Positions 3,242-46,226 of a stretch of DNA of 64,000 nucleotides are shown here, piece after piece. Source of the stretch: Tilletiopsis washingtonensis (taxonomy: Eukaryota > Basidiomycota > Exobasidiomycetes > Entylomatales); the NCBI RefSeq assembly GCF_003144115.1, contig NW_020312013.1:347839-411838 (forward strand). Direction: 5' to 3'. The translations under genes were made by a program, and so were the position numbers. The notes below the pieces were generated by a model, which saw only the letters and a list, made by a program, of their open reading frames with translations, searched no databases and was not told the origin of the DNA. Position 1 is the stretch's first letter, and every line of letters begins with the position of its first letter.

Positions 3242-5285
3242 TCATCCGTCTCGCTTTCTTCGCACTTTCCCTGCCATTCTTGCGTCTCTCACTTGCCTCC
3301 TCATGACTGTATCACCGCCTTGCCTGTCTACTACCCCCACTTCCCATCTCACTTCTCTCGTCTCACTTCTCCATCGTATTACATTTGCACACGCCTGCTC
3401 GAGCACGGCCCACAGGGCAATCGCGCCTGCCCTCAGAGGGGGGACTTGGTAAGGTAAGAAAAAGTCAAGGTGAGGGGGGCTTTCGCTCGGCCTGCATCCG
3501 GCGTGCGAGGGGCAGTAGGAGTCCTACAGCTATGCGCTTCCATGCGAACGCCGAGCATCCGGCAAGGAGAGAGGCGCAGAGGTCGGATCGGGCTGCTTCG
3601 AGCCGCGCTAAGATGCGTATGGTAGGTCATTGATGGCGCAACTGCAACGCGAGCGAAGCGGGCCCAGAAAACCCTAACGAGGTGGTCGCGTGTGTTTACG
3701 CAGGACGTAGACACACAAACGAGCGCGGCGGGATAGCAGCCGCACCGATCGTCTTGCGCAAGGGAGCTCAAAACGACGCCGTTTACGTTGCTCGAGCGTT
3801 TGCAACTGCGCCGCGACCTGGACGCCAAAACGCAGCGCTGGCTCGGCTACCAGTTCCGCCATCAAAACCTGCTTGCCCCCTCTTCTCCACCGCGACGCTC
3901 AGCAGCTCGCAACGCACAGCTCTCGTCCAATCCGGACTCGCAGCAACGCGACGCAGGTTTGTCCTCGAGCGAAACGCTCCCAGCCACACCAACGCCGTGT
4001 CGGTTCTTGCGCGCCTCCTTTGCTCGATGCACATACATCGCTCCTGTCCGTGGATCGCCCCGACAAGAGACTCTGCCACACCCGCAAGTACACACTCCAC
4101 ACGTGCGTCCGCCCGAGTGAACCACCCCCCACGTGTGGACGAGGACAATCGGACGCGCATGTGTCTCCCTGCCTCATCCTTGCTCCCTTCTTGCGCCCCG
4201 CACGACCAGCGCACAAACTAGCACAGCAACCACGCACCGCGCCAAAGGTCTTTGTGGGTTGTCCGCCGCCAGATAACAGCCTGAGAGAGGAAGTACCCGC
4301 GCACGAGTGGGGGGCAAAGACAGCTTTGCAGAAGACCCCCCTTTTCATGAGAGTACGCCTTCTCCCCCCCGGGAGAGGGGAGACGCATACTCTCGCCGTG
4401 CTCGTCCACGCGCCCTTGTGCGGCCTTTCCGCAAAGAACAGGCGTCCGAGCAACGAAGGAACGCGCGAAGCCGAGCAGCAGCTTGGGAGAGGGAGGGCGC
4501 GCGACACATATGATTTGGCCCGCCCAGACGGGAGGCGGCCAGCTGCCAACGCGCCCGGCCGTGTTGCCGCCCACCAATGCGCATGCACGCAACAGCAGCG
4601 ACAAGCCACGGCCAAGATGACTTAGGGTTAGGGAGAAGTCTCTGCGGTCCCGCATGTCTGCTCGCAGGAATGCGAAGCAACAGGGCACCGCATGTGAGAC
4701 TTTGCGCATGCGCCGTGCACAGCCTTACCCCGAGAGGAAGAGCGTGCGCGGACATGCGCGGCGCCAGGACGTGCGTGGCGACAAAGTGCCAGCCTGCACG
4801 CTGGCGCGAGACGCAAGCAGGAAGAAGCGACGAGACGGGAGAACGGCGGCACCGGGGAGGGCAGAGCTGTGCCAGGACGAGGACGGAGAGGAGACGCGGC
4901 GAGACGGCGACGACGACGACGGGCAGCGCTGGGAGGGAGTGGGGGAGAGAGAGAAGCGAGCGTCGAGCCGACGCGTCGAAGGCGCGCACTCGGCGGGACG
5001 CGTCGGCGTGGGACCACAGTGGAGCAGGCGTGTCACGTGCGCTGCGCCAGCGGCGTGCGGCCGGCGGTGCGCTCGATGCGCCGCCGCTTCGCCCGCTCCA
5101 CGCTCGGCCACCGCCGTGCCTCGCGCATGGGAGGCCTGACGTGCGTGCGTGCGCTCCCCGCTCCCCCCACCACCGCACCCTCGCTCGCTGCTCGTCCCTT
5201 GCGTACCTGCGCTCGCTCGCGGCCGCCTCTCTCCCTCCCGCGCCCGCCCGCCCGCTGTGCTGTCTGCGCCGCCTGCGGCCAGGCC
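3242..5285. other. Intergenic region between Lon and Sds3-like gene
   Basis: About 2 kb with no supportable gene. It should hold the Lon 3' UTR (the pyrimidine-rich stretch after the stop) and the Sds3-like promoter and 5' UTR. Overlapping ORFs on both strands have no family signature and arise from the GC content. The only distinctive sites are telomere-like motifs at 3670-3676 and 4622-4633. Confidence 0.6.
4622..4633 (+). repeat. Two tandem TTAGGG telomere-like units
   Basis: TTAGGGTTAGGG occurs in the gene-free region about 650 bp upstream of the Sds3-like start codon. A single AACCCTAA-like unit on the opposite strand lies near 3670. Two units are too few for a chromosome end. They fit a telobox, the type of site bound by Tbf1/TRF-like factors in fungal promoters, but the function here is inferred only. 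Confidence 0.5.
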
Positions 5286-8132
5286 ATGCCCGCGCGCGCA
5301 CGTCCGCGTGCCCGCAACGCCAGTCCGCCCCGTCAAGTTCCCGCCGCCTCGGCGCAGCCTGCGTCGCCGCCGCCGCCCGCATCGCCCGCTGCGTCCGCAT
5401 CGCCGCTCTCGTCGCCCCTGCGCACGCCCGCCACGCTGCCGCTCGCCTTCTCCGCCTCGCCCTCGCCCGTGCCCTCGCTGCACAGCATCATGCACGACGC
5501 CGCCGCCGCCGACGCCGCCGCCGCCGCCGCAGAGGCGCCGGCCGAGCAGCAGCCGGCACTCGATGCGCTCGCCGGCCTCGCCGTCGCCGCCGCACCGCAG
5601 CAGCAGCCGCCGCACTCGTATGCCTTCAGCGACGAGAGCGACCTCACCGACGAGCCCGACGACGACGCCTCGGCCGACGGCGACGACGACGACGACGACG
5701 CCTCGGCCGCCGGCACGCAGCAGCCCTGGCCCGCCGCGGCGGCGTCCGAGGGCAGCGTCTCGGGCAACGAGCTGCTCACCGCCGCTGCCGACGACGACGA
5801 GCTCGACGGCGACGACGACGACGAGCTGGGCGAGGTCGACGAGTCGGAGCTAGAGGGCACCGACAATGGCGAAGGCTCGGCCAGCGACGACGACGACGAC
5901 GACGAGGCGTCGCGCGCCGGCTCCGAGGAGCAGGAGGAGCAGGCCGTTGCGAGCCTGGCGGCGCTAGGCTCGGCCCTCGGCGGCGCCTCTGCTGCCGCCC
6001 CAAGCACGGGCAGCAGCTCGGCCGGCTCAGCCACGCGGCAAAGCGCCGCGACGAACGCGGCGCTCGATGGCCTCGCTGCCCTCGCCTCCCTCGATGCTCC
6101 GCCAAATGCCGGCCTCACGACGGCCGCGCAGCGCGCCGTCAATCTGGCGGCGCGCGGCCGGCGGCGAGGGCGCGGCATTGGCGGTCGCCGCGCTCGCAGT
6201 GGCCGCGCGGCCCGCGCTACCGAGGTGCAGTTTGGCAGTGGAGGCGAAGGAGGCGAGGGAGACGACGAGGAAGAAGCATCGGAGGAGGAAGAGGAGGAAG
6301 AGGAAGAGGGCGCATCGGACGAGGAGGCTTCTGATGCCGAGGCCCTCGACCCAAGCGGCTCGGGCCTCGCGGCGCAAGTGCCCATCTCCAAGCCCTCGCT
6401 GCTGGCGCGCGCGCCTCGCATCACGCTCGATGCCGCCCCCGACGCGGCTGCTGCGGACAGCGATGCATTGGCGCCGCCATACAGCACGCCGACGAGTCGC
6501 GAGGGCACGCCGGCGCCGCCCTTGCCGGCACATTTGCGTGCCGAGACAGAGGTGGACACGGACGCCGATGCGCCGGCTGGCAGGCGCGATGAGGAGCAGC
6601 AGGGAGCGGTGACGAGACAGGAGAAGGAGGAGGAAGAGCGAGTCGCGCGGCTGGAGGCTGAGGCTGGACAGGAAGATGGTGAGTTGCGCTGGAGGCACGC
6701 CCATGCGGATAGTCGCCCGAGCTCACGCGTGCTATCGCCTTCTTTGCAGAGGCTGCTACTGATGAGGCGGCTCAACGGCGGTCTGAGGCTATGGAGGCCC
6801 TGACGCGCATCGAGATTGCCTTTGCCGCGCTGCGTGACCGGCTGTACGTCGAGCGCATGGCAGAGGTGAACCGGGAGAGCGAGATGATCCTCGATGGTGT
6901 GTTGCTGGACGATGCGCCGCTCTGCTTCTCGCGTGGTTGCTCACGCACGCTGCTCTGCAGGCACGCACCCGGAGCTCATCCACCTCACCAAGCTCATCGA
7001 GGCACGGCGAGAGCGGCGCGTGCGGCTCGGAAGCGCGTGGTTCGAGCACCAGCAGCGCCAGTACGAGCGTGTGGGCAAGGCGGAGGAGGCTATGGAGTGG
7101 AGTGCCTGGCGCGTGAGTGCGAGAACATGTGCAGCATCTCGGATGAGCGCGGCGAGCTGACGCCGAAGGTGCCACCTGCAGAACGATGCCGCGTCGCTGC
7201 GACGCACGCAGATGGACGACGTCTCGCGCAAGCGGCGACAGCTGGAGCGCGAGAAGCGAGTGCTAGATGCCCCGCGGCCCGCGCGTCGCTACCAGCTCTT
7301 CCAGACGGAGCTGGTGCGCAATCCCGACTGGCGCGCACCCTCGCCGCCCGCCAATGCTGCAGCTGGCGGCTCGAGCAGACGCAAGCGGAGAGCGGCCGAG
7401 GCCGCGCCGGAGGAGCCGGAACGCGAGATTGGAGCGTATGTCGCTTTCCCGGATCTGAGGGGGCTCGAGGAACAGGAGGCGTGGCTGGACATGGAGCACA
7501 TGGGCGTGAGTAGCCCGCAGAGCCTTGCTGACGAGGCCCGGACTGACGCGCAAAGCACTGCGCAGATTCGGCCAGACTTGCGTCTGGGCATGCATGGCTA
7601 CCGCGGCGAGGAGCTGGCGCCGCCTCCGGGTCTCTACGGCGCCCAAGCAGGCGCCTCGGGCATGTACGAAGGCAGTGCGCCGGGCGCCTATCTGCCGCCG
7701 GGCTACGACGGACCGCACGCCGGCGAGCTCTACGCCCACGAGTATGCGCAGCTTCGGCAGCATGAGCTGCTGATGCAGCAACAGCAGCAGCAGCAACAGC
7801 AACATCTGGAGCAGCTGGCACAGCAGCATGCTCGCTATGCAGAGCATCCGGCCTCGTATGGAGCTGCCGCTATGCCGCCGCAGGGAGAGATGCCGCAGGC
7901 GGCATTTGCTGCACCGATGCCGCCGAGCAAAAGCAGTGCAGTCGGCGCCAAGGCACCGAACGCTGCGCCGCCGAAGGGCGCACGAGTGCCGGCGCCTCCG
8001 ACCGCTGCGGGCGCCCAAGCACCAGCACGACCTGCAGGAGGCACAGTGAAGAACAAGCCGCCGCCGCCACCGCCACCTTCGCATGCTGCACCACAGCGTC
8101 CAAGTGTGCCGCCGTTGCCTGCTGCGCGATGA
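5286..8132 (+). CDS. SDS3: Sds3-like subunit of the Sin3 histone deacetylase complex
   Basis: Predicted nuclear scaffold subunit joining Sin3 and Rpd3-type deacetylase. Exons 5286-6678, 6750-6896, 6961-7112, 7182-7505, 7566-8132 give 860 residues. The first 460 residues are low complexity: Ala/Pro-rich, then long Asp/Glu tracts. The Sds3-like domain follows at about 465-600, with the segments ALTRIEIAFAALRDRLYVER, HPELIHLTKLIEARRERRVR and DVSRKRRQLEREKRVLDAP, typical of the Sds3/BRMS1/Dep1 family. The C-terminus has a Gln run and a Pro-rich tail. The last intron (60 nt, GTGAGT...CGCAG) is a multiple of three without a stop; if it is retained the protein gains 20 residues. The start at 5286 is the ATG nearest the conserved part that precedes the whole disordered region; later in-frame ATGs (for example near 5490) are possible. 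Confidence 0.85.
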
Positions 8133-16886: not shown

Positions 16887-19514
16887 CTAGAAGTAGCCAT
16901 TGCGGGGCCGCTTGGCCATGCGCTCGTCGTGCGCAAGGTGCGGGCTCGGACTGCCGGCAGCAGCAAAGGGCGCCAGGCGTCGAGGATCCTCGCGCGGCTC
17001 GGGCATGCGGGGCCGCGCGGCCGCCGGGTGCTGTGCGGCGTGGTGCGGCGGCGGACCTTCAGCCGCAGGCGAATGGGCGCCGGGGTAGTACTGAGGCGCA
17101 GGAGGCATGCGCCGCGGCTGCTGGTGTGCAGCGACGTGCGGAGGCGCACCAGAGCCGCCGGCACGCTCGTCGGCGTACGGACCGCCGGCCTCCACCTCGT
17201 ACTCGCCACGCGCACGCCGAGCGTCCGGCGCCGCCCCCGCGGCGGCGCCATTGCCGTAGCGCGGCGGCGGCAGCGCGTGACTGCTGCCCGACGGGCCGCT
17301 CATGGGTGCCGAGGCAGCGGCGTGCGCAGGATGCCGACGCGGCGGAGACTCGTACTCGTCGGCATAGGCGCCCTGCGGCGCAGGGCCGCCGTGCTGCTGC
17401 GGATGGTGTGCGTACGCAGGGTGCGTGGCCGGCGGAGCGGCGGAAGCGTAGCGCGGCGACGGGTGAGGGCCCTCGCGGTGCTGCTGCTCCTGACGCTGCT
17501 GCTGTTGCTGCTGCTGCTGCTGATGTTGGAGCTGCTGCTGCTGTTGCTCGTGCTGATGCTGCTGCTGCGCGGCTTGGGCCTGCGCTTGTGCCGCTTGCTG
17601 CTGCTGCTGCTGCTGCTGATGCGATGCTTGTGCATGCGCTTGCTGCGAGGCAGTGAGGTCCTCTTGAGCACGCGACAGGTGCTGGATCCACTGCGCCGCG
17701 TTGTCCGACTGCTTCTCGAGCTGCTCGACGCGCGCGGTGAGCGCCCGGTTCTGCGTCGCCAGCTCGCGGTTCTGCTCCGCGACTGATGGCATTCGGCGTT
17801 AGCGAGCGATTGGCTGGCATCACGGCGACGGTCACTCACGCTCGTGCATCACCATGGCGCGCGCCTCGTTGAGGATGTCGGCGCGCATCATGTCGAACAG
17901 GCCCGGCGGCAGCGTCTTGCCGTTGGCGACGCCCGGCGGTGAAGGCTCGCCGTGCATGTGCTCGTTGCGCACGGGCTCCGGACCGTACGACGGGTGAGAC
18001 TGAGGGCCAGCAGGACGACGCATCGGTGCCTGCTCGTGCGGCCGCTCAGTGCGGCGCCAGTCGCCGCTGAGCGTGACGTTGGCCTCGCGCGGGCTGGCGA
18101 CCATGCGAGCACGCGCACTCTGAGGTGCACCGTTGCTGCGAGGTTCGTCGGCATAGCGCGGCTTGCCGTCGAACGGCGTCGGCGGCATCTGCCTCCGACG
18201 CGGACCGCCGACGCCCGGGTGGATGGCAGCGGCGGTCAGAGCGGGCCCGAGCTCCTCGCGGCCGTTGGAGGCGCCGTTGTGGCGCGAGCCTTGGACGATG
18301 CCCATGGCGCGCTGCCGCCGCTCCGGTCCGTATGCGCCTTGGTGAATCTGCAGTGGGTGAGGGTGGGTGCATGGTCTACAGATCTTGCCTGCAGCTCTAC
18401 TCACGCGCACAAACTCGGACACAAGCGCCGGCTTGCTCTTGGTGCTGAGTGTGCCGCGAGAGGCACACCACTCGAGCCACTCCTGGTACAGCTCGGTGAC
18501 GCTGCGTGCCATGTCCTCCTCGTCGCTGGCGTCGAGGTTGTGCTTCTCGATGAGCGCCAAAAACTTGTCGACTGCGGCGGGACATGATCAGCCAGTTGTA
18601 CACAGGCAGCCCCACGCATCAGACTCACCCTCCTCGGGCTGCAGGTCTGCATCTTCGGCAGGCACCGCCCGCGGTGCTGCGTGCATGTGCTCATGCGGCG
18701 AGCGTTGCGGCGGGTGAGGGCTGCCCGGCAGGGAGCGCGGACCTTGCTGCCCGCGGTGGTGAGAGAGATGCGCCTGCTCGCGCGCAGCGGCCGACGACGA
18801 GGGCAGGTGGTGCAGCGGACGCGAGCCGGACGGCTCATTGAGCATGGGCGGCAGGCGGCGCTGGTCGGGCATCGGGCCGCCGGGCGCAGAGGCCGGCCAC
18901 TCGGCGTGGCGCGGAGACTGCGAGAGGTGACGTCCCAACGGCGCCGCCTCGGGCTCGTGCAGCGTGCGGGCGTCGAGCGGCGGCGGACGGTGCGCTCGCT
19001 TGCGGTCAGGCACCAGCGGCGGCGAGACGCTGTCCGCCTTGCCGCCGGCCCACGACGGCGGCGCGCCGCGAGCATCGACGTTGGGCGCCGAGCGCGAAGT
19101 CGACATGCCCGAGGTCGTCGAGTGGGCCGAGTGCGGCGGCGCAGAGGCGCCGGCGGTGCGCTCGTCGTCGCGCGGAGGCATCTCGACGCTGGTGACGCGG
19201 CGCGGTGCGCCGGGCCGCTCGGCCGCGTTGGAGGGAGCGCGGCGCCGGTTGACTCGGAGCGGCAGCGTCGAGCGCGAGCGCGGCGGCAGGTCGGCGTCGG
19301 TGGGCTCGTCCTCGAGCTCGTCGACCTGCGAGCCCGTCTCGTGGCGCTCGTGTGCGGCGGCGGCGTCGGCGTCGGCGCCGGGCGGCGCGGTGCTGAGGGA
19401 GCGGCGCGGCGGGATGCGCGGGTAGAAGGACTCGGGCTCGGCGGGTGCAGTGAGCGTGCGGCGCGGCGAGGGCGCGCGGCTGCCACTGCCGCTGCGGGGA
19501 GAGGGCATGGACAT
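16887..19514 (-). CDS. Gln-rich coiled-coil protein of unknown function
   Basis: Not recognised. Exons 18629-19514, 18405-18571, 17840-18347, 16887-17782; 818 residues. The first 295 residues are disordered, rich in Pro, Ser, Arg and acidic patches. A compact, probably folded block spans exon 2 and includes DKFLALIEKHNLDASDEED and LYQEWLEWCASRGTLSTKSK (about 296-350). A charged Pro/Arg-rich region follows, then a helix (GLFDMMRADILNEARAMVMH) leading into a leucine-heptad coiled coil (ENRELATQNRALTARVEQLE; about 520-560), long Gln runs and a His/Pro-rich tail ending KRPRNGYF, a possible nuclear signal. Such architecture is common in fungal transcriptional regulators, but no DNA-binding domain is visible. 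The start could be the second Met (19508). A 4.6-kb gene-free block lies upstream. Confidence 0.7.
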
Positions 19515-22500
19515 GGGGCGAGACGGAGAGGTAGAGGTTGGAAGGGCAGAGCGTAAGGTCGGAGGGGATGGACGAGTCGCGAGTGGGCGCGGCTCGGCGC
19601 TGTAACGCCGGCCGCGCGCGCCAACGTCCTGGGCGGCGACGGAGGCTCCCGAGCGTCGCATCACATCACCGCGACACCTGCGCCGCACGCTCGTCCTCTC
19701 CCTCGCCTCCCTCGCAAGCGTGGTGCAGCGCACACGCCGGCGCTACGCCGTAGCGGCGCCCGCCGCCCGCCTGATGGGCCGCGCCTTGCCTGCGCCCCTT
19801 GATCCGGCGCCGCTGCCCGCTCGCGGCGCCATGTGACACGGGCGCCGGCCGGCTTGCTCGCAGCGTTGGCCCGCCTGCCGCACGCTGCTGCGATGCATGA
19901 TGCAAGCTGCAGCCGCTTGCCGGCGCAGAAGTCAGCGAGCTGCAGGGGCAGAGCGCATGGGCGGGCGTCGGCAGCGCCGCCGCAGCAAGGTGCGCGCGGG
20001 CGATGGCTGCTGATCCTGCTCCGCTGCACGAGGCACGGTCGGTGCGTGTTGGCGCCTCCATGCTCACTGCAGCCGTCGCGCCTGCGTCTGCATGCTGCTG
20101 CTGCGCCGCCACGCCTCGCGCCTCTCGGGCTGCCCGCGGCCCCGGCACCTTCCATGCCATGCAAGCCGCCGCCGCTGCCCCATGCACGGCGGCCCAACGG
20201 GACGGCGCTGCGCAGGGCCGCTCGTGCTTGTGCATCCGCAGCCGTCGTGCCGCTGCGCTGCTGCATGCCGCCGCCGCCCGTGCTGCGTCGACACTGCCCT
20301 CGGGCCAAGCCACCATCTAAGTCCCACGGCAGCAGCGCCTCCGCCACACGCGCGCAAATCGGCTCTCTCGCCAGACCGTGCAGCGCAGCGCAGCATGCGT
20401 CGCGCATCATCCGGCATCGTGGCTGCCGCAGGAGGGGCGCGCATACAGACACCGCTCGTTGCACCATCGCCAGAGGCAGCGAAGTGCCGTGGCGGCGCCG
20501 CAAGATGACAGCTTGCCCGCGAAGCATGCCGCTGCGGTGCGGCGGCGGCGCAAGCGCGCCATCGATCCGACGGCCTCGGTGTGCACGCGCGCGCCGCCAG
20601 CCACGCGCCTTTGCTGCGCGCGGGAAGACGGAGGCCCCGCGAGACTTGCTGCGACCCTGGCCGGGAGCCACGACGCTCCAGCAAGCACTGCGCCGTGCGT
20701 TCTAGCTTGCTCCTCCATCTCCCTTGCCCAGCCAACAGCAGCGCTTGCTCCACCTTTGCGATGCTGACTCAGGCCGCGCTCGGCCAGGCCGCCCTTGCGC
20801 CAAGCGCGTGGGAGCTGGCAGGCAGTTGCGCTTGCGCTGCCAGCGAGCCGTGCTAGCCGCAGAGTACCGCGCTTGCCGGGCGCAACTTGCGGAGAGGCGT
20901 GCGCTGTGGTTGAAGTACGATGCACGCTGCATGGCTGCGGCTGCTTCTGGGCGTCCGCTGAGGCGGCGGTGCAAGGGAGCACTTGATGCGCAAGAGCTCT
21001 CCGACGGAGCGGCCACGCTGCTCCCGCCCTTGCTTTCCTGCTGCCCACGCATCGAGAGCCAGACTGCGGCCATGCGCGACAGCGGGAAGGCCGTTGGCAT
21101 GCAGCTTGCGCCCGAGGCGGCCTCCGCGCCTTTCCCGCACCTCTCCTGCTGCTGCCCCTCGATGGCTGCTGATGCTGCCTTCGCTAGCACGCTTGCAAGC
21201 CGCTCCTCCCTTCGCGTCGTCCGCTACCCGCTCGCCGCAGCACGCAAGGCGCGCCTCTACCGTGCGACACCGGCGTGATGGTAAAGCGAGCAGCAGCCCC
21301 CGGGTGCGCTAGCGCTGTCGCCTCTGCACGCAACAGGCGGATGCAGCAGCGTGCAGGACGCATGCATGCATGACAGCAGGCGCATCTCAGGCGGCGTCTG
21401 CGGCGGCGTCGCGAGGGGCAGGCACGGGACGATGCAGAAACATGCATGGCGGCACGGGAAGGCGGAGACGGCGAAGAGGCGGCGGAGGCGGCGCAGGGCG
21501 GCATGCGGCGTGCGGAGGCTCCTGTACCGAGCGTTCGGCTGCCGCTCCCTCCTCTTCCCGTCTGCTCGCAGCAGTGCAGCTCGACGTGCCGACCACGGCA
21601 CCAGACGCTAGCACGACACTTGGAGCCGTGGGCCGAGGCTGTCGTCGGCACAATGCACCATGCTGGACGAACGTCGAGGGAGGGACAAAGAGCGGTGGTT
21701 GCACCGTTGCCGAGGCGATGCCGCGGCGCAGATGCCGCAAGCGGCGGAAGCATCCTGAGGCTGGCTGTGGTGCTGTGCGCGGCGCGCTCGCGGCACCGAC
21801 GCCGCTCGGAGCGGACCAACCCTCGTTCCCTCCGGACGAGCGCCGCAGCGGCACCGCTGCCGCCTGCGCCGCGTTCCGATCCGCGCGCACGCCTTGTTTG
21901 GACAGCATGTTTCGCCGCCGCAGGACAGCGCAGGAGCGGCGCACGGGAGCGCCTGCCGACGCTGCGCTGGCCGCATGCGAGACGCGGGCCGCCCTTCTGC
22001 GAGCAGCATGACGACGAGGCTTCGCTGCCGCTGAGTGTGCTGTTCCGCCGCCGCATCGCCCTGCTGCGGCTGTCTATGGCCCTCGCTTTCGGCGCCCCTC
22101 CCGCACTGAGACGGCCAGTGCAGCAGCTGTCATGCATCGACCCTGGCGCGTCGACGCGCTCGGCGTCGTCGACACCGAGCCGATGCGCGCATGCTCGCAG
22201 GCTGCATGCTGCCGCGCGAGGCTCAACGGCCTTCCCATGCGCCAAGCGACGCGAGGCGTACTCCTGATGCACGCAGCATCGAGCCCTCGTCGCTGGATGG
22301 GCTGGCCGAGGCGGTGCCGCGCACCACCTGCGGGGGAGAGATAGAATGTCTCGCTCGCTCCGCAGCGTGCTGCGGATTTGAGCTTCAGCAGGGCAGCAGC
22401 ATCGGAGCAAGTCTGGGAAATTCGGGCCTGTGCAGCCGCGTCTCGCGCGCCACGCCGCTCCGCTCTCGAGGCGCAGGCGAGAGTCATGGCGCACGGAAGC

Positions 22501-24139
22501 GTGAGACTGCGCCGCCTCCCGCCCCCGTTCGCATCGAGCATGAGCACGTCGTGGCTGGAGAGAGCTCGGCCATCTCGAGACCCCCGCCAGGTCGCTGCTC
22601 CACGTGAAGCAGACCCGGCGTGCCCAAGTCTGAGAGCAGCCACGCCAGCCGTGGCTGGCTCCGGCGCGGGCAGGTGAAGGCGAGCGCGATGCGGGAGCAG
22701 CAGCGGCCGCGCAGCAGCTGCACCTGCTGGGTGCTGCTGCTGCGAGAGCCCTGAGCCCTGCAGCACGCTCGCTGGGCGGCGCCGACGTGCATGTGCATGA
22801 ATTCGACCGTCCGCACGCTGGCACGCAGCGCATGAGAGCAGCCTCGCAGTGGCCGCAGTAGCGCGCCGTGCCTGCGTGGGCCCAGTGCTGCGGCATGCAT
22901 GCCTGTCGCCCCGAAAGACGCAGCGGCCGGCGGCAGAGCGCAGGGGCAGCAGGCAGCAGCAAGCCCAGGCAGCAGGGCAGCGCGCGTTGATGCACGCTGC
23001 GTGTCGAACGCCGGGACCGGCCTTATTTTGCGCAAGACGCGGCAGCAAGAGCAAGATGCAGAGGCAAGAGGAGGTGCAGCACAGAAACGCCATCGCACAT
23101 GCCGACGGCGCACGCCTTCCCGCGGCTCGCGGTGTGGCAGACCAGAGAGATGCCCGCGCCGCAGGGGGGCTGACTGCACGGGCGAGGGCCACGCTGTTGC
23201 GCGCTGCGCCGCACGCGCCCGCGTACGCGCGCGCGCCACCCTCACCCACGCGCAGGCGCGGACTGTCGCACCACCGCCTCGGGCCGCAAGAGCCAGAGGC
23301 CTCCCTCTCGTGTCGCCACGTCCAGCACGGATAAAGGAAGCGTCATCTGATGCCGCAGGAGAGTAAGATTAGCTCCGATGCCACAGCGCTTCGCTAGCGC
23401 AGACGATGCACGGGCGCAGAAGGCGCGCGACGCGCGGGATGCGCGGGTGCGGCGGCGCCCGTGCAGCGCGCAGCGGCTCGGAGGCGGCGGCGCTGACGAG
23501 GACGCTGCTGCTGCTCTCTGGCGGCTGGTCACCGCACCGCACCGCCTCGCGCTGCTGGTGCTGGCTTGGCGGTGTCGCGACGCTGCCCGCTGCACTGCAC
23601 CCTCCTGTGCCCACGCTAGCGACGCTTTAGGCTGTGAGGCCTCGACGCAACTTGCCGGAACACATGCAGCCTGGCTTGTCCCTGCACAACGCCAGGCACA
23701 GCATGCCGATCGACAGAAGCGGTCCGAAGGGTCAGGTCATGCTGTCTGCCAGGGACTGGCGTGCACAAGCGCGAGTCTGAGCCAGCCGCAGGCCGCAGTC
23801 GCGCGCGAGGAGATCTCCTACCCGCGGGGACCAGTCGCTCGGGCCGGCACTCTGTCACTTGCCACCGACTGCGGAAGCGCCGCAGACGTGGGAATGAGGG
23901 AGGCGAGACAAGCTCGGGACGCCTTGCCCAAGGCAGGCAGACTGGCGTCGGGGCTGCGAGACCGTGCTTCCTCGAGTCAGGCTAGGCTAGGCTGCTGCGC
24001 TTAGCACGCCCGTTGCGGATAGCAAGCGTCTTCCGAGCAAGGACTGGAACGTGACAAAGCATTCTGATTCTATCTCCCTCCACCTCACAAGCGCGTTGCC
24101 GCGCCTCTCTCTCTCCTCTATATCCGGTCGCACGGGCAC
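19515..24139. other. 4.6-kb gene-free block upstream of the Gln-rich protein
   Basis: No ORF here has a recognisable domain, natural amino-acid composition or a consistent intron structure; the long ORFs on both strands are Ala/Arg/Cys/His-rich artefacts. The sequence is GC-rich yet full of TGCA, GCATGC and CTGCAG words. It lies upstream of the Gln-rich gene (minus strand) and downstream of ARG1, so it is most simply a very long promoter/5' UTR or a non-coding transcript. Confidence 0.5.
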
Positions 24140-27237: not shown

Positions 27238-27291
<54 letters not shown>

Positions 27292-38160: not shown

Positions 38161-40073
38161 CTAGGCAAGCTTGGGCGAGGGACCGAGCGGCAGGCTGGGG
38201 TGCGCAATCGTCGCGTTGACAGCGGGCGCCGAGACCGTCTTGGGCATGCTGCTGACGGCCGGTGCGGCGCTGACCATCGGGCGCGGAGCAGCGGGTGCAG
38301 GCGCGGCGGCGACGCCGGCGGGCTTGACGGGTGCGGGGCCAGCGACGGGAGCCATGGGACGCGCGGCGAGAGCGGCCTTGGCGGCCTGGGCAGCCTGGTT
38401 CGCCGGCACGGGACGGGCGGCGTTCTGTGCGGCAACGGCAGCCTGGGCAGCGGCGGCGAGCTGCGCGCTCGTCAGCGTGTTGGTGCTGACTGCCGGACGG
38501 CCCGTGGCGCCGTCCACGCGCGCGGACTGCCCGCCGCCGTTGGAGGAGAGCAGGGCGAGGCCGAGCATGCCGTGCGAGCCCGAGTGCAGGTAGTGGTAGC
38601 GCAGGCCGTTGAGGTTCTTGTAGCGCTTGCCGCACGCGCCCACCTGGCACAGGTACATCTTCTCCACCTTGTACTCGGTGTTGGCGGCGAGCGCGGCGGT
38701 GGCAGCCGTGCGCGGGCTCGTGGGCGCAGACGACGTCGGCGTCGGCGTGCCGGAGAGCGCGGGCGAGGCCGCGCCAGCCTTGGCAGCGACGCCAGTGTTG
38801 ATCGTCGGGCGTGCCGGCGAGCCGGCGACGGGCCGCGTGGGCGTGGCGGCGCGCGAGCCGGCGGGCGTCTGCTGCATCTGCTGCGACGGCGGCAGGTTGT
38901 TCTGGTTGCAGTGGCCGTGCAGGCGGTGGTACTTGAGGCCGTTCATCTGCTTGTACGCCTTGTCGCAGCCGGGCGCCGGGCACTTGAACGGCTTGTCGAC
39001 GACGAGCGTGGCGCCGGGGCGCGAGATGTGGCTCTCCGGTGCGGCACCGGCAGCGACGGCGGCGCCGGCAGTGTTGATGCGCTCACGCTTCGTCGGCGGC
39101 TGCTGGGCGGCGCTGGCAGCGGCGCCGCTGCCGCCCGAGGGGAAGAAGAGATTCGGCGGGGCGCAGCTCGGCAGCGTGTTCTCGGCATCGAAGCCGCCGC
39201 GCAGCGACAGCGACGAGAACGAGGGCGTGACGCCGCCGAAGAAGGCCGCGTCGTCGGCGTCGCCGATGGGCGTGCCGGGGATGGACGAGTCGGGCGTCGA
39301 GAAGGGCGAGTTGACCGAGTAGATGGACGGGGCGCCGCCGGCGCCGGCACGGCCGACGCCGCCGTCGATGAGCGCACGGCGCAGCGACTGGTGCACGGCG
39401 CTGTTGCTCGTGCCGCTCGAGTACTGGCCGAAGCTGCGCTTCTTGCCCTTGAGGCCCGCAGCGCCGGCGACGGCGGGGAAGGCGGATGCGTCGTCGAAGT
39501 CGGCACTGCGGCGGGCGCTGGGAGCGCGCGGGCTGGGCGGCTGCGACGACGACGAGGCCGAGGAGCTGCTGCCGGAGTGGTCGTCGTCGGACATCATCGT
39601 CGGCATGTCGTCGTCCTCGAAGCGCACATGGCACTCCTCGTAGTGCTGCAGCAGGTCGTGCAGGTCGTCGAGCGCCTGGCCGCAGCAGGTGAAGTCGCGA
39701 CAGAACGTCGTCTCGAGCTTGCGCGGCATGGATGTCGACGGCAGCGCGGTCATGTCCGAGTCGACGGAGGAGGCGAAGCGGTCGGAGAAGCGGTCGATGG
39801 AGTAGTCCATGATGCTGGGGCAGGGTCAGCAGGTGCTGACGAGGTGACCGCGTCGTGTGCTGCGGCGGCATGCTCCACCGACGGCCGCCAGTCCACCAAC
39901 GAGGGCGCTCCGCCATCTGGCGACGACACTCACTCAGCAATCTCCTTGCCCGTCGAGAAGGCCATGGCCTCGCGGAATGAGGCGCTGTTGGGCGTGGCGA
40001 AGCTGCCGGGCTTGAGGGCGCCGAAGGAGTCGAGGTGCGAGGGCGAGCGGGCGATGGCGATGGGCGCGGGCAT
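38161..40073 (-). CDS. SFP1: Sfp1-type split zinc-finger transcription factor
   Basis: Predicted nuclear activator of ribosomal-protein and ribosome-biogenesis genes, acting downstream of nutrient/TOR signals in yeasts. Exons 39934-40073 and 38161-39814; 597 residues. Seen: an N-terminal atypical finger starting at Cys85 (CRDFTCCGQALDDLHDLLQH ending in HYEECH), an acidic Ser-rich region, then the diagnostic C2H2 finger FKCPAPGCDKAYKQMNGLKY (about 323-347) and, after an Ala/Pro/Thr-rich spacer of some 80 residues, a second C2H2 finger YLCQVGACGKRYKNLNGLRY (about 431-457). The N-terminal exon begins MPAPIAIARSPS and ends in STGKEIAD. The C-terminus is Ala-rich. The pair of widely split fingers with NGLKYH/NGLRYH is the Sfp1/JAZF hallmark. 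A 4-kb gene-free region lies upstream. Confidence 0.9.
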
Positions 40074-43000
40074 GATGGGCGAGGGGTGGGTGTGATGGAG
40101 ACGAGGGTGATGGATGATGATAAGCGAGAGCGAGCTTGAGAGGTCGGGTCGGGGACGGGTCGATTAGGTGCGCAGTTCAGGGAAGGGTGCGCTTTTGGGG
40201 GGCGGGCAGACAAGGTGCCTTTTGAAGCGTTGCTGCAGGTGAGCAAGCTAAGAGGTGTGGGTGTCGAGAGTCGACTTTTGGGGTGCGGACGCCGGGTGCG
40301 CAGTGTAAGGGACGGGGTGAGGCTGGAAGCGGGGGTGGGTGAGGGCAAGAGGCAAGCAGCATCCGCGCGAGGCGGGTACGGCGCGGGCGGGCGCCGTGCG
40401 GTGACTGGCTGCGCGCGGCGGCCGCGCCTGGGGGGCAGCGCAGCCGGCGCCGCGACGGTGTGAGGCGAGGGGCAGCGCGCGCGCCGCGCGCCAGCCCGGC
40501 CACACAGGCGCAGCGCCCGGGCGTGAGTGGTGCGCCGCGCCCGCTGTGCCGTCACACTGCGAGCGTGCGAAGGTCGGGCGGCGCAGCGGCAGGCCGGCAG
40601 CCGCGAGCGCAACGTCCAGCCGCGGCAAGGTCTGACGCAGCATGCAGCGCCAGTGCCCGGCTTCGCTCCTGTTGGCTCTACACTGGCGCCACGCCCAGGG
40701 CCATTGCCACTGTGAGCGGCACCTGGGTGCGCCCGCGGCGCGCCTGCCCGAGCGCTTGCACGCTAGGCGCCGCACACTGCCGCTGCGCCTGCGCCGTGTT
40801 GAGCCGCCGGAACAGCTGCGCGGCGGAGTTTGAAGTGGTGAATCTTATGCCTGCGCAGCCGAGGGCCACGGCACACAACCCGTCTCGGCGCACGCGCAGG
40901 CGTTCTGGGCCAAGAAGCGCGGCGGTGCCGGAAACGGGCCCGCGCCAACGGCTGCAGCCACGGCGCCGCGACGCTCGGGCGGCCGAGCTGCACGCTGCAG
41001 TGGGCCCTGCGCCGCCGCCGCGCCTCCGGAGCGGGCGCATCTCCGCCCGGGCAGCGTGGCACGGCACGGCGGCGGCGGCACCGGCAGCGGCGCTGGGCGC
41101 GTCCACTGAGATTCGCGCACAGCCGGTCCGCCACGCCGGCTGCGCTCCTCTTTCCACGGGCGGCTTCATTTTGGCGCTGCGGGCACCCTGCGCCTACTTG
41201 CAGGCTGCATGCCTGCAGCCGCTCGAGGTGATCCGCCGGGAGCCTTGCTGCTGCTGAGCCTCTCTCCGCCGTCCCGAAGAGCGCGCCGCGCCGCCTAGGA
41301 GGTCCTTCCCGAGATGGGCTGACGCGGCCTCTTGTCCGTGGCTCCTGAGCGCGTGCGGCGAGGGGCGCAGAGTGCAATACACTGTGACTCTCCTGGCCTA
41401 AAGGGCAGCCACAGCGGCGAGAGTGCGCTGCGAATAGACACGGCATGACGTCGGAGCCGAAGCGCGAGGCGCGGCTCTCGCGGCCCCGTCGACGCTGGGC
41501 GCCTCGCAGGCGCCCAGCGTCGACGGGGCCGCGAGAGGGGCGGTGGGCCGGTCCCGAGCGCCATGGCAGCGGCTTGGCCACAACCGCGGCGCCCGACGGC
41601 TCCCCTCGCCTCGCTCGGGCGACCTCCTCCATGATTGGCCCGCCTTCTCTGGCGACGAATGGACGACGAGGGACGCCGAGCAAGCAACCTTCGGAGGCGT
41701 CCCATGCGGGCACCCTCGGGCTCACCTGCAGCGCCGCCATTGGATTGGCGCTCAGAGCGCAGCATGCAGGCGGCTTCTGGCTGCATCTCGTTGCATGCTT
41801 GTGTGGGTACAGCTGCAGCGCCGAGTGCGCTAGGAGCAGCGGGAGGGGTGCGCAACAGAGACGCAGGCATGCGGCGCGGCGCAGACGCCGCACCCGCACC
41901 GCAGCTGCGCAAGCCAACGACCCGACCCGGCATCGCCTCGCCGCCTGAGGCTCTGCGCCAGCTGCACTGCACCCGACGTTCTCGCAGTGCCAGCAGGCAG
42001 CATGCACAAGCCTCCAGCTGAAGCCGGCATGCACGAGCAAGAGCGGGTGCACGGAGCGGGCTCGCACCCTCACTTGCCGCACCGCCGCCCGCCGCGACAG
42101 CCGCCACGATGGAATGCTCCGCGCACCGCACCGCCGCAAGAAGGGCGAGGCTGGACCCACATGCCAGCATGCAGCACCCCGCTCCGAGTGGGTGCACTTG
42201 CATGCTGCACGCCCCCGCCACCGCTCGGCACGCTCGGAAGCGGCGAGGGCTGCTGAATCAACAGCATGCCGCCGTCCGAGCCTCGCTGGGTGCGCGCTCG
42301 GCGTTGTCGCCGTGCGGATCCGGATGGGCGCGACGGCGGCGACGCCCACGCTCTCAGACAGCGCCCGGGGTTCAAGCGCGCGGGTGGCGGCTGCAAGTGC
42401 GTCCGGCGCTGCTGCCGCGCTCGCGCCTCTCCGGAGAACTCGACGCTGCGAGACGGAGCCAGCCGTGTGGCTCTGGCGCTGCGCCGGAAGAGTGGCGTGT
42501 GGTGTTCCGGGCGGAGTGCGAGCCACGCCGCCGCCGCGCCTTCGCCCTCGGAGCCGAACGCGCCTTCGCCATGGTCGTCTGACCGCGTCCGTCGCACCCT
42601 CGGCCCAAGCAGCATGGCCCCGCACTCACAGATCTTGACAGCGCGCGCTTGAATACAATGCAGCGTGTGCATGTGGGAGCGCGGTGCCCGTCTTGGCTTG
42701 CGCCGCAAGGAGGTGTGCGCCAAGCGAGGCCCGCCCGTCGTTGCAGGCTCGGCAAGCGCACGAATTGACAACGACGAGCGAGCGTCCGCGAGGCGAGTCT
42801 TGATGAGGGCACGGCACGGCCGCGGCCTCTCTCGCGCTGCGCGGCGAACTCGAGCGTTCGGCGGTGTCGCCGAGGCCACGCGGTGCCGGGCAGCCAACGA
42901 CTCTCGGAGCGCTGCCCGAGGCGCCGCCGCGCCGAGGCTCCGCGCGAGCAAGCTGCACCTGCGACGGCCCGGCGGGCTACGAACGGCCGCTGCGCCGAGG

Positions 43001-44141
43001 TGCTCGGGCAGAACGCAGCAGCTCTGCAGCGCTGCTGCTGATGCTGATGCTGCCGCTGCGCTCTGGGCGTGGGCAGCGCCACACACAGCGCGCAGCTGCC
43101 TTGCAGTGCTGCAGCACCACGGCACGCTCGGCAGCAGCGCGGCAGCAGCCGGCTTCGAGCGCCTCGCAGCCGCGCTCCGACTCGACCTGGCCGCTGTTTG
43201 CCGCGGCAGCACGAGAGGGCAGCGCAGCGCACGACATGACGTCGGGAGCGTGGCGCTAGAACGCAGGCCCATGGGCCGCATGAACGTCGGCCGCGCAAGC
43301 AAGCAGCTTCGCGAGAGATGGCCGAGCGCCGAGCCACCCGACTCTGCGCCTTGGCTGCTGACGCTGGCCCGCCCACGTCACAGCCTCCGCACCGCAACCG
43401 AGCGCCCTTGATAGTTTTGAGCGCCCAAGCTAGGCACGGCTGCATGAAAGGTCGCTCGGACGCTGAGCGTGACCGCGGCCAGCAGGTGCAGCGCCGAGCT
43501 CGCCGCCTCCTCTCATGCTGCTGCCTCAGCTCGGAGGCTCGGAGAGTAACGGCAGCAGCAGCAGCAGCAGCAGGGCCCTCCTGCTGATCAGCGCCAGATC
43601 ACCGCTCACTGTTGCGCTGGCCGCCGCCGGGGGTGGTGCTGCTTTGGCTTGGCCCGCTGGCCGCAACTCTGCGGCGACTAGGCATGGTCCAACCTTGTCC
43701 AACAGCAGGGCGTTACGCCGACGAGAGGTTCGATTGAGCCGCCTGCACCGCACCCGCACGAATGCACCACCCACATGGCGACCACGTCGTGCGGGTGCAC
43801 GGGCGCTGCGGGAGACAGGCGCACCAAATGAGCGACCCACACCTGCGGATGCTGGCGAAATACTGATGGCGCTCCACGCTCATGCGTGACGTTCACCCTC
43901 GCCCGAGCGCCGGATGTGGAGAGAGCATGAATGCCCATCTCGGGGAGATGTGATAGGCACGGGCATGGTCGCGTGCACACGACGTTGCGAGGCGGGCCGC
44001 TGCACAGAGCCCGGCGCCTCGAGGTGCGCCAGAAGCTGCGGTGACTTTGATGAAGAGCGATCTCACGGCTTGCGTGTCGCGTCACACGACGTCACTCGAC
44101 TCCTCGGGAAAGCGCTCCTTCGTGTACACTGCATGCCCATG
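40074..44141. other. 4-kb gene-free block upstream of the Sfp1-type gene
   Basis: Between the Sfp1-type start and the Doa1-like stop. No coding signature was found on either strand, including the two 600-residue ORFs at 40763-42625. It is rich in GCATGC, TGCA and CTGCAG words and holds a perfect 30-bp inverted repeat (41475-41537). The part next to 40073 (40074-40330) is G-rich and purine-biased, consistent with a 5' UTR/promoter. Confidence 0.5.
41475..41537. repeat. Perfect 30-bp inverted repeat with 3-nt loop
   Basis: The left arm 41475-41504 and right arm 41508-41537 are exact reverse complements, separated by CGC. The arm starts CTCTCGCGGCCCCGTCGACG. No mismatch in 30 pairs, very GC-rich; the pairing stops at both outer ends. 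In single-stranded DNA or RNA it would form a very stable hairpin. Confidence 0.97.
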
Positions 44142-45876
44142 CTACCGCGCTACCCGGGGCGCCACGAGCTGGATGAAGTCCTCGATCTGCGCGACGTACG
44201 AGTCGGGCAGCGAGTGCTTGGCCACGAAGGCGAGCGCTGCCTCATGGGCGTCATCTGCGTTGCGCCAGGTCAGCGACTGCCACCGCGATGCACAGGTAGT
44301 CCGCTTCTGCGCACCGGCAGCGTTGAGCCCGAGCTGCAGCGGCGGCGCGTCGTCGCTGACGTCGATGCAGAGCACGGCGTCGTACGGCACACCATCGAGC
44401 AGCTGCCGCTCATTCTGCGGTGCCGCATCGCCGCTGGCCGCGATCACCTCCGCCGTAGGCCTGTGGCAGCGTGAGCGACGTGCCAGCGCGCTCTGTCGCT
44501 CGACTCACCCGCCGCTGCGCTGCGTTCGCTTCACTACTTCCGCGCAGGCCTCGTCGTGCGCGCGACGCTCTGCCTCGTCGACCTCGCCATCCTCGGCGTG
44601 CCCAGTCGTGTACATGCAGATCCGTCCGGTGTTCGAGGCGGCGGCAAGGTCGCCGCACGGCAGCAAAGCTACCGCCCAAATGCTGATGCTCGGCTGTGCA
44701 ATCGTGTCCTGCAGAGCCGCGCCTGTTGGACGTTCAGCACACGGTCGTCTGAGCCCGGCGCTCTACTCACTCTCCCAGCTCCACAAACGTACCGCGCCTT
44801 CTTCGCCGGCAGTGGCAGCCAAGCTGCCCTGCGCAGCCGCAGCGTAGACGAATGGCTCGCGCGGCGTGGACAAGACTCGCAGTGCCTCGCCGCCGCTCGT
44901 GGGCACGCCAGGTGGGCTGCGCCGCTCATCCAGCGACCATACTCGCGCACTGCCGTCGTTGGACGTCGTGAGGAAGAGCGACTCTGCGGCGTAGAACTCG
45001 GGCATCGCTCCGTCGAGTACTCGAGGCTCGTTTAGGGGGACTAGCGCTCGCACTACGTCGTCGTGTCCAGCCCACACGCGCACGAGCGACGAGCCATGGA
45101 AGAGACGCACGAAGCGATCAGCGCCCGCTACAGCGCAGCGCAAGTCAGCTACGGCTTGTCCGCTCGGCAACTCCCACTCACAAGTCAGCACTCGTGGCTC
45201 CCCCTCGTGCACTCCGCACACGCTAGCGTCCCAGACGGCACAGTCATGCCACATGGTGTCGAGTGACGTCCATGTCTCCTCATCATCGGCACGGCTCCAG
45301 GTACGTGCAGAGCCGTCCCAGCTTGACGACACGAGAAGATGGCGTGTGCCGTCGACGAACGAGTGGAGCGCAGTTACGTTCGCCTCGTGGCCCGAGAGAC
45401 GGAGCCCTTTGGAGACTGGAGCGCCGCTCTGCGCCGCGGCTGGGAAGGGAAAGACAAGCACCTCTCCCGAGAGGCCGGCAGTGAGAAGCTGCGCTATGTC
45501 GCCTGTCAGCATTCACTCCTGGCAGCCGATCGTAGCCATACCTACGTCGCGAACCGCCCACAAAGTGTACAGCGTTGAGATAGCGGCCTTGCGGATCTGC
45601 CCATGCGCCGTGCTCTCCCCATGGCCCACGCCGCTGCTCGCCGTCAGCGCCGCAGCTGAGCTGGCGCACCCATGCCCGTGCCGTGCCGTCGCGCGAGGCG
45701 GAGAAGAGCGCCTCGATGGGCATGTCTGCGCCGTCGATGATGCCAGGCTCGAGCACGCAGGCGTGCAGCGCCTTGACGTCTGAGGTGTGCTGCGCCAGGA
45801 CGTGCGCGAGACGCCAGGGCGAGCTGGGCCCTGCCGCTGCCTCGCGCTCGCCTGCAACAGGCTCGTTGTCGCCCAT
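44142..45876 (-). CDS. DOA1: Doa1/Ufd3/PLAA-like WD40-PFU protein without PUL domain
   Basis: Ubiquitin-binding cofactor of Cdc48/p97 in ubiquitin homeostasis. Exons 45546-45876, 44771-45502, 44509-44722, 44315-44460, 44142-44254; 511 residues. Seen: a WD40 propeller with family phrases ALFSASRDGTARAW, GRYLNAVHFVGG, LSGHEANVTALHSF, SSSWDGSARTWS, WAGHDDVVRALVPL, TTSNDGSARVWSLD, AATAGEEGAVRLWSWE and ISIWAVALLPCGDLAAASN; then the PFU domain (YDAVLCIDVSDDAPPLQLGL...SLPDSYVAQIEDFI) at about 445-505. The protein stops six residues later, whereas Doa1 (715 residues) and PLAA continue into the Cdc48-binding PUL domain. No PUL-like helical coding sequence was seen downstream. Intron 1 is only 43 nt. 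The start at 45876 is the first Met before the propeller; the frame stays open further upstream. Confidence 0.88.
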
Positions 45877-46226
45877 GCTAGTCGAGACGGCTGTGGTGCG
45901 GCTGCTTGCGATGTACTTGAGGCGCTTGTGGTGGTGGAAGGCAAGCCTTGCCGGCAGCGTCTGCTTCAAGGTCGAGCGCTTGCGCGCCACGGACGCGCGC
46001 ACGGTCCGCGGGGCGCTGCATCCCGATGCCCCTCGCAGACCCGCGCTTCTTCTCGACACGCGACTCGCTCCTCACCACCACCTCATCGTTGCGCCGCCCA
46101 GAGCACCCCACTGCCAAGCATCGGCGCCGCTACTGCTGCCGCCCTCGCATCACAGCGCTGCAGGCGGCTCTGCGGCCCTCGCCGTCCCTTTGTCCTCTTG
46201 CGGCCGCCGCCCCTCCACTGCCCAGC
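45877..46226. other. Divergent promoter (Doa1-like / ARP8)
   Basis: A 350-bp head-to-head spacer. It is pyrimidine-rich toward the ARP8 ATG. No TATA box. Frames remain open through it on both strands, so either start could lie slightly further upstream. Confidence 0.5.

Follow-up and report, generated by a model that had tools for sequence, protein, structure and literature searches.

A perfect 30-bp GC-rich inverted repeat in apparently non-coding DNA of a probable fungus, a likely template-switch scar

Introduction

Short-range template switching is a published mutational mechanism and, in the portions of the literature drawn on here, has also been put forward as a source of microRNA hairpins. 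In the part of the work on great apes used for comparison (PMC7954356), copies have a median length of 12 nt and reach at most 128 nt, and events that lengthen the sequence make up 65.0%. We describe a GC-rich stem-loop of 63 nt found in a 64-kb window, the whole stretch of DNA analysed, which occupies positions 347839-411838 of contig C16 in an assembly of 18.7 Mb and 32 contigs. The likeliest origin of this hairpin is a mutation of an already known kind, of which it would be the scar; as it stands, it is an eye-catching yet ordinary mutational feature.

Results

Structure of the hairpin and expectation by chance

A preliminary description of this DNA reported error-free 30-bp arms separated by a 3-nt loop, and the arms are indeed exact reverse complements around the trinucleotide CGC (Table 1). 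The hairpin is a real feature of the assembled sequence, and pairing of the stem ends abruptly, with two mismatches and then three pairs beyond the 30 bp. About 1.1e-10 perfect 30-bp arms with loops of up to 60 nt were expected by chance in the window, using a base-pair probability of 0.281 derived from the composition of the window, a value in keeping with the earlier wording of 'extremely unlikely by chance'. The runner-up perfect arm within the window was 12 nt, and the longest perfect arm in first-order Markov simulations (n = 3) was at most 12. As a chance origin is extremely unlikely, the hairpin is either recent or selected, a point on which the preliminary description was correct; most likely it is recent, with maintenance by selection being less likely. 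The additional argument that such palindromes tend to be lost carries little weight for an arm of only 30 bp, as strong instability is a property of much longer palindromes.

The hairpin was stable in single-strand folding. A 133-nt RNA containing it folded at -103.8 kcal/mol (z = -7.5) and a 73-nt DNA at -51.3 kcal/mol (z = -11.3), and none of 200 shuffles was equally stable in either case. The duplex had few unpaired bases and no side stems in the RNA fold, as is looked for in a fungal microRNA-like locus.

Table 1. Positions of the hairpin and of neighbouring features in the window
Feature	Position	Strand	Comment
C2H2 zinc-finger gene	38161..39810	-	PF17017, 28.8 bits (cut-off 27); GC3 0.918
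Apparently non-coding stretch with hairpin	40201..44100		Weak codon periodicity; no Pfam match over cut-off in 12 open frames tested
Left arm	41475..41504	+	30 nt, CTCTCGCGGCCCCGTCGACGCTGGGCGCCT; exact reverse complement of 41508-41537
Loop	41505..41507		CGC, 3 nt
Right arm	41508..41537	-	30 nt; left-arm sequence on minus strand
WD40 + PFU gene (PLAA/Doa1-like)	44142..46059 (approximate extent)	-	Separate open frames pass the cut-offs of PF00400 and PF09070

Searches for further copies and for comparable hairpins

The preliminary description had proposed a search of the genome for more copies of the arm. No third place was found for it at up to 3 mismatches in the non-N part of the 18.7-Mb assembly, the only matches being the two arms themselves. 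The 3.2 kb around the hairpin matched nothing in the non-N assembly but itself and, over the hairpin, its own opposite strand, and a 201-base query around the hairpin likewise gave no indication of a dispersed repeat in the non-N assembly. These searches bear directly on the reading of the arms as a remnant of a transposable element, either the paired ends of a MITE or a solo inverted end. Inverted repeats are typical of transposable elements, and the N stretches of this genome could hide copies; nevertheless, additional genome copies, by which such an element would be recognized, were absent from the non-N assembly for the arm at up to 3 mismatches as well as for the surrounding 3.2 kb, and the spacing between the arms is a mere 3 nt. 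A dispersed repeat or transposon end was, hence, disfavoured by the searches of the non-N assembly with all three queries, and a remnant of this kind is extremely improbable. Trinucleotide arrays of TGC/GCA occur elsewhere in the window, with 48 imperfect copies at 17479-17622 and 17.7 perfect copies at 27238-27290.

An assembly or library artefact, in which a fold-back read entered the consensus, is quite unlikely. GC-rich sequence is hard to sequence, which speaks for such an error, but the sequence runs on without a break into both flanks, on a contig of 610 kb, and neither flank has a match elsewhere in the non-N assembly. Moreover, a fold-back artefact usually ends the sequence or inverts a long stretch rather than inserting 30 nt and resuming.

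A scored census of hairpins with loops of up to 20 nt detected no comparable second hairpin in 309,896 non-N bases (31 records). The best other score was 13, which falls inside the range of the top scores in three shuffles (13, 14 and 14). A total of 38 rows scored 11 or more, with ten nested versions of this same hairpin among the 25 listed; other hairpins at this level, therefore, numbered at most 28, as against 19, 26 and 26 in the three shuffles. Records L001, L002, L010, L012, L013, L014 and L016 were dropped from this census as repeating or overlapping other loci, and the hairpin centres considered were those at least about 40 bases from either end of a record. When perfect arms with loops of up to 100 nt were sought in all 38 records, the next longest was 14 nt. 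Within the sampled 1.7% of the genome the hairpin is exceptional. N stretches, amounting to 28,132 bases in five loci, lay outside these scans; L007, L025, L027, L028 and L029 are N-rich, with 4,055 to 7,851 N bases per 10-kb stretch.

Surroundings of the hairpin and coding signal

The hairpin apparently lies in non-coding DNA. Between 40201 and 44100, divided into 13 bins of 300 bases, G+C differed by 0.05 to 0.13 between codon phases, compared with 0.27 to 0.38 in five bins inside the zinc-finger gene. The bin from 39901 had a phase difference of 0.22, making the non-coding status of 39.9-40.2 kb uncertain. Weak periodicity alone is compatible with coding, since values as low as 0.09 and as high as 0.39 occur in the bins over the WD40-PFU gene. 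None of the 12 open frames tested within or reaching into 40201-44100 had a Pfam match over the cut-off, and these included the three frames that cross the hairpin, 41445-41948 (+), 40763-42625 (-) and 41295-42221 (-). These three also showed no codon periodicity, and the hairpin was rejected as coding sequence. The frame at 41445-41948 had a sub-threshold match to PF09534 (E = 0.0053; 17.1 bits against a cut-off of 29.6), treated as compositional, and a frame farther off, at 43678-44085, matched PF19593 below the cut-off (E = 0.14). Known structured RNAs and tRNAs were also rejected, as the window contained no Rfam match above the gathering score and no tRNA.

On one side of this stretch is the zinc-finger gene, presumably Sfp1-like and a probable regulator gene, whose start codon, at 39810, has the hairpin 1.7 kb upstream. 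A PDB search with the protein detected only three weak zinc-finger matches, the best with an E value of 0.00011, and gave no closer identification. On the other side, the hairpin is downstream of the minus-strand WD40-PFU gene, at a distance of 2.6 kb from the stop of the PFU frame. This gene seems to be split into several exons, and the frame at 45283-46059 had no match in Pfam. A PUL domain was not found beside the gene, while two PUL matches were detected in the genome search, both on other contigs (C30:17829-18509 and C8:653276-653584); the gene may be a shortened paralogue, or its PUL part may have been missed. Matches of open frames in the window also include Arp8. Together with the RNAi domains described below, these matches mark the genome as eukaryotic and, probably, as that of a GC-rich fungus. 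The hexamer GCATGC, possibly a promoter motif of the organism, is clustered in the window: by raw counts, 10 of the 70 copies are in 39.9-44.0 kb, with a span near the hairpin of 40637-42270, and 14 are in the 20- to 24-kb bin, a second cluster at 20001-24000.

This position raises the question of a selected DNA element: in the long region upstream of the zinc-finger gene, the hairpin could serve as a site for a dimeric protein or form a cruciform. Clear coding signal is lacking over about 4 kb here, the gene downstream is a probable regulator, and the hairpin is stable when folded as single-stranded DNA. Protein sites, however, rarely need 30 perfect base pairs, and no copy of the arm was found elsewhere in the non-N assembly. 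Yeast inverted repeats have been reported in the vicinity of transcription starts and of gene ends in the portions of PMC4237412 and PMC6420913 considered, but the gene-end repeats in the latter are AT- or A-tract-rich, whereas the hairpin is GC-rich, with the nearest upstream stop codon 2.6 kb away. Selection on a DNA element is, on this evidence, about as improbable as an assembly artefact.

RNA interference genes and the arms as possible small RNAs

Profile matches indicated that the genome encodes a Piwi domain (C11), an RdRP of family PF05183 (C8) and RNase III domains, with three matches for the last, two of which are in tandem and apparently in one open frame (C18). With these RNAi domains encoded, the hairpin may be a source of small RNA: it could be transcribed as a young microRNA-like or siRNA precursor, with Dicer cutting the stem-loop and one arm being loaded on Argonaute. 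The stem is sufficiently long and very stable. In the part of PMC9757828 consulted, the well-supported hairpin loci for fungal small RNAs tend to be short and to have <20 nt separating the arms of the duplex. Dicer and Argonaute, which are expected with a fungal microRNA-like locus, are represented here by single domains only (tandem RNase III and Piwi, respectively). A 22-mer of one arm had five other places in the genome at 3 mismatches versus one for its reversed control, but the 22-mer of the other arm had two versus four for the control. Combined, near-perfect targets of the arm 22-mers numbered 7 versus 5 for the controls in the genome search, which is no clear excess, and the proposal of an arm acting as a small RNA with near-perfect targets was rejected. 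Also against a precursor, a match in Rfam, which would lend support but is not required, was absent from the window, and nothing in a wholly perfect stem suggests that selection has long maintained it for processing. Overall, a small-RNA precursor is rather unlikely.

A further proposal is a newborn hairpin-RNA gene. In this case, a template switch would have just made a perfect Dicer substrate upstream of the zinc-finger regulator gene of an RNAi-encoding fungus, and the stem would be seen before mismatches have arisen. While this is very unlikely, if it were true, a fungal microRNA-like locus could be watched directly as it comes into being.

Discussion

The preliminary description offered three proposals for this hairpin, a transcribed small-RNA source, a protein site and the scar of a fold-back event. 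The fold-back scar fits best because the hairpin is single copy in the non-N assembly, apparently non-coding, perfect and sharply bounded; the transcribed source is possible, given the encoded RNAi domains, but gained no positive evidence. We therefore favour, with a probability of about 0.62, a single short-range template switch (fold-back) in apparently non-coding DNA as the origin of the hairpin. During replication, the growing strand would have just moved beyond one arm, jumped to the complementary or the nascent strand, copied about 30 nt in reverse as the reverse complement and then returned, so that a perfect inverted copy came to follow a 3-nt spacer. The arms would be free of decay because the event is young; alternatively, later template switching may have re-corrected them. 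The 60 unchanged arm sites would place the divergence since the event at less than roughly 0.05 substitutions per site, if the arms are unselected (exp(-60K) = 0.05).

Evidence for a template switch comes from the exact, full-length reverse-complement copy of a nearby sequence and from its occurrence beyond chance, with ~1e-10 expected in the window and none comparable in the 309,896 sampled bases. Two observations run counter to it. The sample contained no other, decaying hairpins, so that nothing in it indicates a high frequency of such events in this genome, and 30 nt is well over the median of 12 found in apes, as far as the part of PMC7954356 used here goes. Flank microhomology was rejected as a trace of the switch: a 9-mer in the flank (41463-41471) is reverse-complementary to the end of the arm together with the loop, but 4.7% of 3000 random flank pairs matched equally well or better. 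In one genome, selection for the hairpin would look identical to a template-switch scar. Nothing found here points to a job for the hairpin, and it probably has none. If the hairpin is a young template-switch product, it provides one more clean case of a long perfect stem made in a single step, in a genome that also encodes RNAi proteins. It would gain more importance only if small RNAs derive from it or relatives retain it.

Comparison with known systems follows the same lines, within the portions of the cited papers relied upon. Short inverted repeats in yeast (PMC6420913) resemble this locus in being spaced inverted repeats, here in a probable fungal genome; those at yeast gene ends, however, are AT- or A-tract-rich, whereas this hairpin is GC-rich, is not near a gene end and by far exceeds in length every other one scanned in the sample. 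The fungal microRNA and microRNA-like (milRNA) loci of PMC9757828 share with it a short hairpin with arms that are close together, and RNAi domains are present in this genome, but the stem here is wholly perfect and the locus has no known homologue. There is also a likeness to short-range template-switch mutations under the four-point model (PMC8794818, PMC7954356), with which the hairpin shares a perfect reverse-complement copy and a short spacer; its arms are longer than the ape median of 12 nt (PMC7954356), yet a 30-nt copy, while long, is inside the range given in these two sources.
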